Source of the DNA: Serendipita indica DSM 11827
Lineage: Eukaryota > Basidiomycota > Agaricomycetes > Sebacinales > Serendipitaceae
DNA: 64,000 nucleotides
Assembly (NCBI GenBank): GCA_910890315.1
Contig: CAJVGD010000002.1
Span: 806,001 to 870,000, forward strand
Direction of reading: 5' to 3'
Shown here: piece after piece, positions 54,183 to 58,303 of the stretch
Layout: every line of letters starts with the position of its first letter
Numbering within the stretch: position 1 is the stretch's first letter
Program-made: the position numbers and the translations under genes
Notes under the pieces: generated by a model
Database searches by the model: none
Told to the model about the DNA's origin: nothing
The model's input: the letters and a program-made list of their open reading frames with translations, nothing else

Positions 54183-56497
54183 TTAGTTCATCTTGATCAT
54201 CATGAGGTAGCGCAGCTTGATTTGTGCTGTGTCGTAAACGATATACTCGTTGTACTGAAGGTAGGCCGTTGAATCAACATTCGTGAGACCGTCTGGGAAA
54301 GGGCTCGTTAGTTGTTCAAGATTAGTTGGGCACGTATTGACGCACCTTTGGGCATCCAGCACCCCTTGAGTTCTTCGTGTCCCAATGCTTCGCCAGCATC
54401 CTGCCAATCCTTGGGTTGCGTGCGTCCAAGACCTTTGGTCGCGCTAAGACGAGTGAGTCTATGGTATTACACCCCAGGCAAGTGGGTACTTACAGTTTTT
54501 GGGCTTTGCCGCATTCAGACTGAGCGTGATAGTTTGCGTGAACCTGTTCATAAAATGGCTTGGCGGCGACTTCACATAGGAGCATCACGCCAATATTGTC
54601 GCTTGCGCTGAGTCCAGAGTGTCAGACGTGTGCCTCTACAACTCAAAAATGAGGACTCACTGTGCGTAGCAATAGTTTGCGCTCTTGCTAAATGCATCGG
54701 CAAAGTAAACGCCCTTGCCAAACATGTATCCAGTCACGGGAGCTTCCGGTGGTGCGATGCGGAGACCTTGCTTGAGCTAGTATATCATCAGGATCTGTAG
54801 TGATAGGAGAGTATGCATCTGGTAGACCTACAATACCGCAAAAGTTTGTCGAGCGAGAACCGTGCCAGAGCAGGAGCCGTTCCCCGTCTTGAAGCTTTTG
54901 ATGACCAGCATTGTCCCAGCGATCCCTTTCGTCGTGTCGCTCGACACGGAAGGCCTGGAGAATCTTGCCGGTGTAATGAGAATGCGTATGGCCGTGCGTG
55001 CTTGTGACATAGTTTTGGAGAACGCTAAACTCGGACGAATTGGCATCTATTGGGTTCATGAATTTGAGGTTCAGGCTATGGAAGTGCTTGTCGAGTGGAT
55101 TGATGGGGTTGCCATTGGCGTCGGTTGGTCGTTCGTCATCCATCACCTTTTGAGTGATTTCCATATCCGAGAGCGCGCCGACGAGCTCAAGTTCCTGAGA
55201 AAGGATAAGCTTGGCTCAAAGGCCGACGAGGATGGATGAGCTTACAGATTTTAGCTGCTGCTTCGTCTTGACAGGTACGGGTCTTTGTCGACCGAATGCA
55301 TGGGGAATGATCGAGTAGTAAGCAGCAGAGAGGGTATCGCAAGCGCTTGCAAATCCGCCCAAAGACTTGGCTTTTGGACCATTGGGTGCGTTGATGACCT
55401 CGGAAAGTTCCTTGAGAGCAGCAAAGCCCCGAAGGATAGTGTTATTGGAGAGCTGGCCAAGCGGGAGCTTTTGGGCATCATAGTTCATCGCACTCAAGGT
55501 TGCACTCATGAGGCTGGTGACGGTGGTCAGTACATAGACTTGCCGAGAGGTGGTAGTAGTAGACTCACTCGGACGAGAAGATCAAGTTGCAGAATTGCTG
55601 TCGATGCGATCAGAGGTGGACCATCAAGGAATAAATGGACGAACCTGGAGGGGAGGCTCGAGCTTAGAGTCGGGAATGATGTAGTCTTCCTTTGCCTTTT
55701 TACTGACGGGTTTGGCCTCTTCATACGAGCGTTCAATCCATGTATATTTGCCTGTGCCATTGAGCATGTACTGACGTATGGGAACAATGTACATACCTGG
55801 TGCAGCGACCATGCCATGACGGGACTCCCATGCAACGGATGACTTGCTCTTGAAGACCTTTTTAAATTCGGCGATTGCTTGTGCTGGCGAGGAAAAGGGA
55901 CCTTTGACTGCATTCTGGCCATTTTCTCCAACTCTTCCCCAACTAAGAATGTGTAAGTGCCTGCCGCCCCGCCAAGGTGAGCTTCTTACCGGGTGAAAAC
56001 AAGGTAGTTGGAGTCTGTGTTCTTGGGACAGAGGATCTGTATAACATAAAACTTGTTGTTGTTGGCAGAAATGTTGGTCTGGTTGAGCATAGCATCGTAA
56101 ATCTGGTCCCCCTCGGTGTATACTTTGTGAGTCGCTGGAAATGTGTGAGTAAGAAACGACTGGCGATTGGGAACAACGTACCAACGTAGTGAGTCGTTGG
56201 GTCTACAGGTGCAATACCTCGTTTGAGCTCGACCTCTTCCTCTTCATCATCGCCGTCGCCGTTGACGACCTGTTGCACCGCGTCTTCGTCGTCCTGGGTC
56301 GTCTTTTGGCGTTTTGATGCTGGCTTATCGTCGCCAACATCATCATCGTCGTCGTTGTCGTCTTTAGCTGCTCTCTTCTTTGACTTTGCAGCTGTTGCCT
56401 TTCTCTTTGGTGCTGGTTTTGGTGGAGGAGAAGGTGCAGTCTGTGCTGCCGCCGAGGTGGAGGCTGCGGTAGAGCGAGTGCTGCGACGAGGAGGCAT
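54183..56497 (-). CDS. Poly(ADP-ribose) polymerase, PARP1/2 type with WGR domain
   Basis: A nuclear enzyme that builds poly(ADP-ribose) from NAD+ on proteins at DNA breaks. The start at 56497 gives [20 protein letters not shown] basic/acidic linker follows with [19 protein letters not shown], a likely bipartite nuclear signal. The WGR domain has [34 protein letters not shown] and [18 protein letters not shown]. The regulatory helical domain has [19 protein letters not shown] and [13 protein letters not shown] [18 protein letters not shown]. The ART domain carries the triad: His in LLLWHGSR, Tyr in [17 protein letters not shown], Glu in [11 protein letters not shown]. All three (H-Y-E) are present, which in this family means polymer synthesis rather than mono-transfer. 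There are no zinc fingers or BRCT domain, so the layout is PARP2-like, as in other filamentous fungi (PrpA). Stop at 54183. Confidence 0.93.
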
Positions 56498-56708
56498 TTG
56501 GAAAAAGTGGATTGTGATTGGAGTCGAAAGTGGCAACATCGACGGGCCTTTTATACGTCGGGAGGCAGTGAACTAGTCAGGTCGTCGGTCCTTCTACATT
56601 TGGAAATTAGTCGAATCGAGTCATTCTGAAAAGGCGCGCGGTTGGTGAACGTGTGGCAAACATCTGAATTGGTCACTCTTGGATCTTGCCACATCTCGAC
56701 ACGCACCA
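56498..56708. promoter_or_regulatory. Candidate bidirectional promoter, PARP and CHFR
   Basis: Only 211 bases separate the PARP start (minus, 56497) and the CHFR start (plus, 56709). No other gene fits in between, so both promoters must lie here or overlap the 5' ends. No clear TATA box is seen on either side. An in-frame ATG at 56539 could lengthen PARP slightly and narrow the gap. Confidence 0.6.
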
Positions 56709-58303
56709 TGGCCACCCAGCCCGACTCGAACATTGACCCCAGACAGAAAATTCTGGCAGATTTCTTCACTTGTGGTATGTGAAAAGTTGTGGATGCGCGC
56801 TGGAAACTGACTCTGCAAGTCATCTGTCACGACATCATGTCACATCCATACACAAGTAGGTCAAAAACACACCACGTTTCGCTGTTACTCATCGTCTAGT
56901 CGTCGATTGCTTGCACAAGTTTGACAAGGACTGCCTCGCCGAGTATTGGAAGCAGTGCGTACATTGGTACATTCATGCCTCGAGACTAATCCTCCCGCAG
57001 AAGCAATTGCTGTCCACTCTGCAAGGTCCAATCCACAAAGGCCAGTCACGACTTTACGGCCCAGGTCATGATCGAAAGCGCCTCTGGAATCTCTGCCCCG
57101 CCTCGCGACAACGCGCCCATCTTCCCATACGGACTCCTCTCTCTCGGTGCTTCTCGTGGTTTTAGCAATGATATTCTCGATGATGGTGACGAGGAAGAAG
57201 AGGAAGACGACGACGCACCCATGGATTCATATCCCGGGATTCAATTCTTCCATCCACCGCCTAGAGTTGGAGGAGATTTAATCTTCCCGTGCGAATCTTG
57301 TCCGCGCGGCAATAGCACTGGATACGAATGTCCCTGGCCCATCCCTATGCCGAGCGCTGAGCAGATTAATGCTGAGTCCCAGCGCCTTGGTGTGCCAATT
57401 CGTGCTCCTACCATGGGAGAGCCTCGTGCTCCGTTACCTGAAGACGATGATGGGCAAGTATCTACCTCGCTTCTCCTTTGTGGCTGACTTGTCTGCAGAC
57501 CTGCCGTGAATGCGCACCTGCAGTGTGATGGATGCTCTCTCTATGTTCCACGCAACTATCCTGCAAACATTCGGTGCACCAATTGTCGAAAAGTGTGCTG
57601 CGCTCAGTACACTAATCAGCCAAACTGCAGGGGTATTTCTCTCTTTCCTGCGAATGGTAAGTCCCTCCTGGCGTATCATTCATCTCTTGCTCAAGCGTCT
57701 AGACCTTCACTACAAGGGCGATACTGTCTACGATATCGCCGAGGGGTTTCCTTTCAACGTCCTGAGAAACCGAGAGGAGATGTCACGATTCGAATCATAC
57801 CTCCAAACTCACGGTATCACTGCTTCTACGATTCTGCGACGCATTGTCGAAGCAAACGAAGCCGCATTTGAGCTCACTCAAGACGATGCACTCACTATCG
57901 AAAGCCAGGGAGTGCGCAGGTCTAATCCGTGGTCGGATGCAGTTCTTTGCAACATGTGTATCGAGAATATTGTTCGTATTCAAGCTGGACCCTGGCAATG
58001 GTGGATGCGGGAGAGGGAGACGGCCGACCTGGATCGTGAGTAATGCACTACTTGCCTGTTTTGACTCTAATGTTTCCCTCAGCTGTCGTTCAACTTCTTC
58101 CAAACTGTTGGTCAGTCGCTCTTCTTGAAACACTGGCGCTCGCTCATATTTTCGCGTAGGTATGGATATGAATGCCGTACGCAAGTCAAGCCTGCACACG
58201 AATCTTCACATGCAGCTCGCTATAATGTAAGAACATCTCTCTGTATCGTGACCATCCTGGCTGACACCGTCCTAAGCACATCTGTTCCCGCACAAGGAGG
58301 TAG
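56709..58303 (+). CDS. CHFR: CHFR-type RING E3 ubiquitin ligase with C-terminal PBZ zinc finger
   Basis: Small exons joined in phase give MATQPDSNIDPRQKILADFF, then a RING finger (C-V-I-C, HDIMSHPYT, DCLHKFDKDCLAEYWKQ, NCCPLCK). An acidic and proline-rich stretch follows (DDGDEEEEEDDDAPMDSYPG). The cysteine-rich domain of CHFR is next (LQCDGCSLYVPRNYPANIRC, TNCRKVCCAQYTNQPNCRG, VLCNMCIENIVRI). The last two exons read LLPNCWYGYECRTQVK, then ARYNHICSRTRR and the stop at 58301. This is the same ending as animal CHFR, with the C-x5-C pair, H-x5-H and F/Y-N-H-I-C of a PBZ poly(ADP-ribose)-binding finger. The FHA domain of animal CHFR is absent. In animals CHFR is a mitotic-stress checkpoint E3 that binds PAR and ubiquitinates PARP1. 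Exon joins at 57455-57500 and 57640-57710 are uncertain. Confidence 0.82.

Follow-up and report, generated by a model that had tools for sequence, protein, structure and literature searches.

The window analysed here is a stretch of 64,000 nucleotides from the root-dwelling fungus Serendipita indica DSM 11827 (C2:806001-870000, in an assembly of 24.7 Mb and 55 contigs). Two genes lie head to head in it, one for a PARP2-type poly(ADP-ribose) (PAR) polymerase (PARP) and the other for a CHFR-like ubiquitin ligase (E3) that ends in a finger resembling the PAR-binding zinc finger (PBZ). Both genes, their orientation and their spacing were confirmed as real. Sequence comparison places the ligase in a putative family with no detectable FHA domain, composed of a RING finger with Asp at ligand 5, a cysteine-rich domain (CRD) and a PBZ, and this family is a firmer result than co-regulation of the pair. 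The explanation that we favour, with somewhat better than even confidence, is that the ligase is directed by PAR and targets either the products of the neighbouring PARP or that enzyme itself. The writer-reader idea put forward in a sequence-only reading of this DNA is reasonable, and that interpretation is partly supported.

The PARP gene and its divergent neighbour

The PARP gene is read from the minus strand, with its ATG at 56497 and its stop codon ending at 54183 in a spliced model of 11 exons. The 603-residue product equals the S. indica DSM 11827 protein P0009 at 602 positions and differs at one. The Pfam, PDB and protein-database queries were made with a 618-residue version retaining a 45-bp intron. 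With this query, the WGR, PARP_reg and PARP domains were detected by Pfam, and the top match in the PDB was human PARP2 (6x0l, E 2.9e-99). H448, Y482 and E583 (603-residue numbering), which we take to be the catalytic triad, line up with human PARP2. The enzyme was classed as PARP2-type on the presence of WGR, PARP_reg and a catalytic domain with H-Y-E and on the absence of N-terminal zinc fingers. It shares its domains, its basic N-terminus and H-Y-E with PARP2 and the clade 1 PARPs, shows no notable departure from them and is an ordinary Agaricomycete PARP2-type enzyme. The description of this gene in the sequence-only reading (H-Y-E triad and WGR domain, minus strand, start at 56497) was borne out by the spliced model, by Pfam and by the alignment with human PARP2.

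The ligase gene is read from the plus strand, with its ATG at 56708 and its stop codon ending at 58303; the strand had been given correctly before, and the start, placed at 56709, was one base off. The ATG-to-ATG gap is exactly 210 bp, as had been estimated for the divergent pair, and a PARP2-type gene does stand beside a RING/PBZ-like gene, in keeping with the claimed neighbourhood of a writer and a PAR-reader-type ubiquitin ligase.

Eleven of the 14 PARP-domain matches in the genome fall outside the window PARP, in L003-L008 and at places on C5, C8, C13 and C17. One PARP-like open reading frame outside the window carries the motifs GKGIYTSDTSSKSNDY and DETVVY and a PF00644 match at 44.2 bits.

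Domains of the ligase

The RING of the predicted ligase was recognized by the Pfam family zf-C3HC4_2 (27.9 bits, cut-off 27; E 2e-6). The Pfam zf-CRD domain exceeded its cut-off (26.3 bits) in the orthologs P0001 (44.9 bits) and P0003 (41.4 bits), and the predicted structure of P0001 is also in agreement with a zf-CRD. When the window ligase was used as a single query against the PDB, human CHFR (2xoc) was retrieved at E 0.0036, ranked under many RINGs. A profile (A4) of four C-terminal halves retrieved two PDB sequences at E ≤ 1, both of them human CHFR (E 6e-11), with the zinc ligands of the finger aligned; it comprised four of the six proteins of alignment A1 and left out P0003, in which the finger is cut, and P0007. 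Among the six aligned proteins, 21 of the 33 Cys/His residues of the window protein are invariant versus 41 of its 374 other residues, and the predicted zinc-ligand residues are under constraint.

A relaxed finger pattern was matched by 22 of the 29 sequences (window included). Four of the seven that missed it (P0005, P0006, P0142 and P0143) have no CxxGxxCRTQ core; P0003 stops just past the finger core, about at an intron position of the window gene; in P0140 (Gautieria) the last His is replaced by Arg, and in P0141 the aromatic residue by His. The database models of P0003 and P0143 end or shift at the finger, near introns of the window gene, and are probable annotation errors. Pfam flagged PBZ in two of the 28 family matches (P0129 and P0132).

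No FHA domain was found in the 407-residue ligase (Pfam, E ≤ 10), and there is little room for one upstream because only 210 bp separate the gene from the PARP start codon. The sequence-only reading had named a CHFR-type RING E3 with a terminal PBZ. The RING was recovered, as was a PBZ-like finger by profile; the name CHFR is too strong for a predicted protein with no FHA match, Asp at RING ligand 5 and a tree position apart from CHFR-like FHA proteins (see below), and by its domains it would not count as a full CHFR, since FHA is not among them. On present evidence the ligase probably acts like the PAR-reading half of CHFR.

Regarding the gene model, splicing exon 1 directly to exon 3 was rejected, as it breaks the RING; the 36-bp exon 2 gives back C-x2-C and is matched in orthologs. 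Intron 4 (window 57454-57498) is GC-AG in the preferred model. A GT-AG alternative, in frame like the preferred version, was judged less likely, as it would lose residues alignable in orthologs. The Serendipita orthologs are 49-53% identical to the window ligase, the closest named one being P0001 from Serendipita sp. 400 (53%). Two protein searches with the ligase gave 8 and 28 matches at E ≤ 0.001, none of which was an S. indica entry; the public annotation of DSM 11827 may therefore miss or mis-model it.

The genome was also scanned with the finger pattern. A second match, at C13:341580, was rejected because it lies in another frame than the gene there, which is presumably that of an RNA polymerase. 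The pattern gave two chance matches when read backwards and is blind to intron-split fingers; for these reasons the window finger is not claimed as the only one in the genome. A Pfam PBZ search of the genome returned no match, with the controls equally silent.

An FHA-less family of ligases

The named FHA-less members of the family come from Serendipita, Tulasnella, Ceratobasidium, Rhizoctonia, Hydnum and Gautieria, and the FHA-bearing relatives from Dissophora (a Mortierellomycote), Macrostomum and one eukaryotic transcript. The RING pattern was matched in 24 of the 29 sequences (window included): among these 24, ligand 5 is Asp in all 20 FHA-less rows, that of the window included, and Cys in all four FHA-bearing rows, two of which are from one species. 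A tree was built from 20 rows, namely 18 of the 28 matches, the window protein and the S. indica paralog L011 (P0005, P0006, P0008, P0131, P0134, P0139, P0141, P0142, P0144 and P0147 were omitted). In this tree, in which long branches meet and seven of the 17 inner branches are open, the 16 FHA-less RING(Asp) rows stand apart from the three FHA rows and L011 (99/99). Compared with animal CHFR and the FHA-bearing Dissophora P0145, the window ligase differs in the missing FHA match, in having Asp where they have Cys at RING ligand 5, in a longer finger loop and in its separate tree group. The fold alignment covered 24 of the 28 matches (P0008, P0141, P0142 and P0144 omitted). A search of viral contigs, covering 13 stretches, found no relative.

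L011 (C2:1437422) is a second zf-CRD RING gene of S. indica, located about 575 kb away from the window PARP start, on the contig that also includes the window. RING and zf-CRD are common to both genes, and no FHA was found in the modelled part of L011. It differs from the window ligase in its Cys RING and in carrying a long insert, and its finger, C-EALGT-C, lacks the aromatic-glycine core. Additionally, P0008 (Peniophora) ends in a CWYGYECRTQ finger and has an F-box-like match below threshold (20.4 bits versus 24.3); it is possibly a second type of PAR-directed ligase subunit.

Linkage and spacing of the pair

The ligase (P0003) and the PARP (P0013) of Serendipita vermifera are each represented by a single sequence on a single contig, and both contigs measure 347,807 bases. 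This is the sole value that the 119 PARP and 26 ligase contig sizes listed have in common, and the PARP sizes by themselves repeat only 131,843, for a pair of PARPs from a single Suillus species, and 1,919, a short contig. Because the two contigs are identical in size, the ligase and PARP genes of S. vermifera probably lie on one contig. The single other species in which conserved linkage could be checked has contigs of the same size (1/1), which would indicate sharing of a contig, not gene order or orientation.

The 210-bp region has a G+C content of 49% and contains ATTGG (reverse CCAAT) twice and TATAAA in reverse once, counted without a chance control; it could be a bidirectional promoter. 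The mean intergenic distance in S. indica is 530 bp, with 471 genes per Mb (PMC3192844). The gap is therefore ordinary and, since short gaps are ordinary in S. indica, co-regulation does not follow from the spacing. We give nearly an even chance to an adjacency without regulatory meaning, arisen by chance in a gene-dense genome and kept in Serendipita by shared descent, which would be compatible with a PAR-reading function. The gene density and mean gap just cited speak for it, as do a linkage indicated in two congeneric species only and neighbours with no evident PAR link (one encoding a BAR-domain protein, the other a tyrosine phosphatase that also has a rhodanese domain), but a random order would put a named gene beside PARP in only about 2 in 11,769 cases (a post hoc figure, with the gene number from PMC3192844).

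Proposed action of the ligase on PARylated proteins

In animals, CHFR reaches DNA breaks via PAR and ubiquitinates auto-PARylated PARP1, leading to its eviction (PMC9404506); the animal background invoked in the sequence-only reading, with CHFR acting on PARP1 through PAR, agrees with that source. Sequence and modelling show the domains, a fold match and the pairing of the genes, with a probable linkage in S. vermifera; PAR binding, E3 activity, the substrate, a nuclear location and co-regulation are inferred parts of the mechanism proposed here. The PARP2-type enzyme would sense DNA breaks via its WGR domain and attach PAR to itself and to chromatin. The cysteine-rich/PBZ end of the ligase would bind that PAR, and its RING would recruit a ubiquitin-conjugating enzyme (E2), leading to ubiquitination of PARylated proteins, probably PARP included, and to their eviction or degradation. 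In this simplest mechanism the phospho-reading FHA is lacking and PAR alone would serve as the recruiting signal. The head-to-head genes may share regulatory DNA. A PAR eraser is probably present in the genome as well, because a PARG-family Pfam match was obtained at C40:1522287 (L012). The classic GGG...QEE signature of PARG was not found in L012 or L013 with a simple regular expression, so the assignment to PARG comes solely from Pfam.

Several observations weigh against a PAR-directed ligase acting on its neighbour. The strict PBZ consensus, [K/R]xxCx[F/Y]GxxCxbbxxxxHxxx[F/Y]xH, was fitted by none of the 29 sequences, and in the window finger the K/R is missing and the loop from the second Cys to the His is four residues longer. 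The Pfam PBZ match of the window ligase is sub-threshold (12.1 bits, cut-off 22.7), and zf-CRD was not listed for this protein itself (Pfam, E ≤ 10). In the predicted structure, the finger region has a predicted local distance difference test (pLDDT) score of about 54-64 and CHFR is matched with a root-mean-square deviation of 5.8; an earlier AlphaFold prediction over five sequences, with a mean pLDDT of 35, was uninformative. The Asp in the RING could change zinc or E2 binding, and the mechanism of animal CHFR is not transferable whole without FHA. Moreover, Serendipita is the only ligase-bearing genus among the PARP matches listed (the best 120 of 5,203), and the support for linkage comes from contig sizes in one congeneric species.

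The sub-threshold score, the missing basic residue, the longer loop and the low model confidence would also suit a vestigial finger or one with another ligand, in a gene for a RING ligase without PAR function. We consider this quite unlikely: relatives with an overall identity of about 30% retain CxxGxxCRTQ...H, the ligands, the aromatic-glycine pair and HxxxYxH of the window finger agree with the published consensus, and human CHFR itself departs from that consensus, with Trp at the aromatic place. A somewhat unlikely alternative is that the ligase reads PAR and targets other PARylated chromatin or mitotic proteins instead of PARP. Animal CHFR controls mitotic entry and has other substrates (PMC3819987, PMC10584835), but the physical pairing with PARP and the documented role of CHFR in removing auto-PARylated PARP1 (PMC9404506) argue for the preferred target, the neighbouring PARP.

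A wider reading, which we regard as unlikely, is that in early-diverging Agaricomycetes a dedicated FHA-less RING(Asp)-CRD-PBZ ligase controls PARP2 turnover and that in Serendipita the pair is held head to head by selection for joint expression. If true, it would constitute a genetically encoded writer-reader-destroyer unit, and a single promoter would set PAR production and clearance if the pair is co-regulated. The family would offer a fungus for testing PAR-dependent ubiquitination without the FHA arm.

Relation to described systems

A 2014 survey, in which PBZ served to mark PAR signalling, reported that Fungi lack it (PMC4245714), losses of PARP in fungi are treated in PMC2964712, and a 2023 paper described a C-terminal PBZ in a DNA ligase of Mortierella verticillata (PMC10665377). 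The occurrence of PBZ in a fungus has thus been published before, and the extension made here is to ubiquitin ligases. The M. verticillata protein (DNA ligase E) and the window ligase are both fungal with a PBZ, and the former is set apart by its description as a DNA ligase. RNF146 (WWE-RING, PMC9404506) follows a similar logic of a PAR-directed RING ligase, with an unrelated PAR-reading domain. PBZ-type ubiquitin ligases in Serendipita, Tulasnella, Ceratobasidium and Rhizoctonia would further close the reported fungal gap. Literature searches for S. indica PARP and for fungal CHFR yielded nothing of use. Neither a fungal PBZ ubiquitin ligase nor a linked PARP-CHFR pair is described in the accessible portions of PMC4245714, PMC4030884, PMC10665377, PMC8529158 and PMC7614390; the literature covered was mostly open-access, and priority is uncertain.

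Features of the window and neighbouring genes

Table 1. Coordinates of the PARP and ligase genes and of their predicted domains (window positions).
Feature	Position	Strand	Details
PARP gene, PARP2-type (WGR + PARP_reg + PARP)	54183..56497	-	11 exons, 603 aa
PARP catalytic domain with His-Tyr-Glu positions	54183..55038	-	PF00644 exon matches; whole-protein E 6e-57
WGR domain of PARP, two exons	55819..56099	-	PF05406 at 55998-56099 and 55819-55962; whole-protein E 1.9e-23
ATG-to-ATG intergenic region; putative divergent promoter for both genes	56498..56707	.	210 bp; putative function
FHA-less CHFR-like E3 gene (RING + cysteine-rich domain + PBZ)	56708..58303	+	9 exons, 407 aa; spliced model
RING finger, Asp at ligand 5, residues 22-60, exons 1-4	56771..57022	+	Pfam RING families
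CHFR-type cysteine-rich zinc domain, approximate limits	57278..58105	+	
C-terminal PBZ-like zinc finger CWYGYECRTQ...HAARYNHIC, split over exons 7-9	58106..58285	+	profile alignment with human CHFR

Of the two neighbours mentioned above, the BAR-domain protein gene lies nearby, and the gene for the tyrosine phosphatase with a rhodanese domain, an ordinary neighbour, occupies window positions 50930-53963, past the 3' end of the PARP gene.
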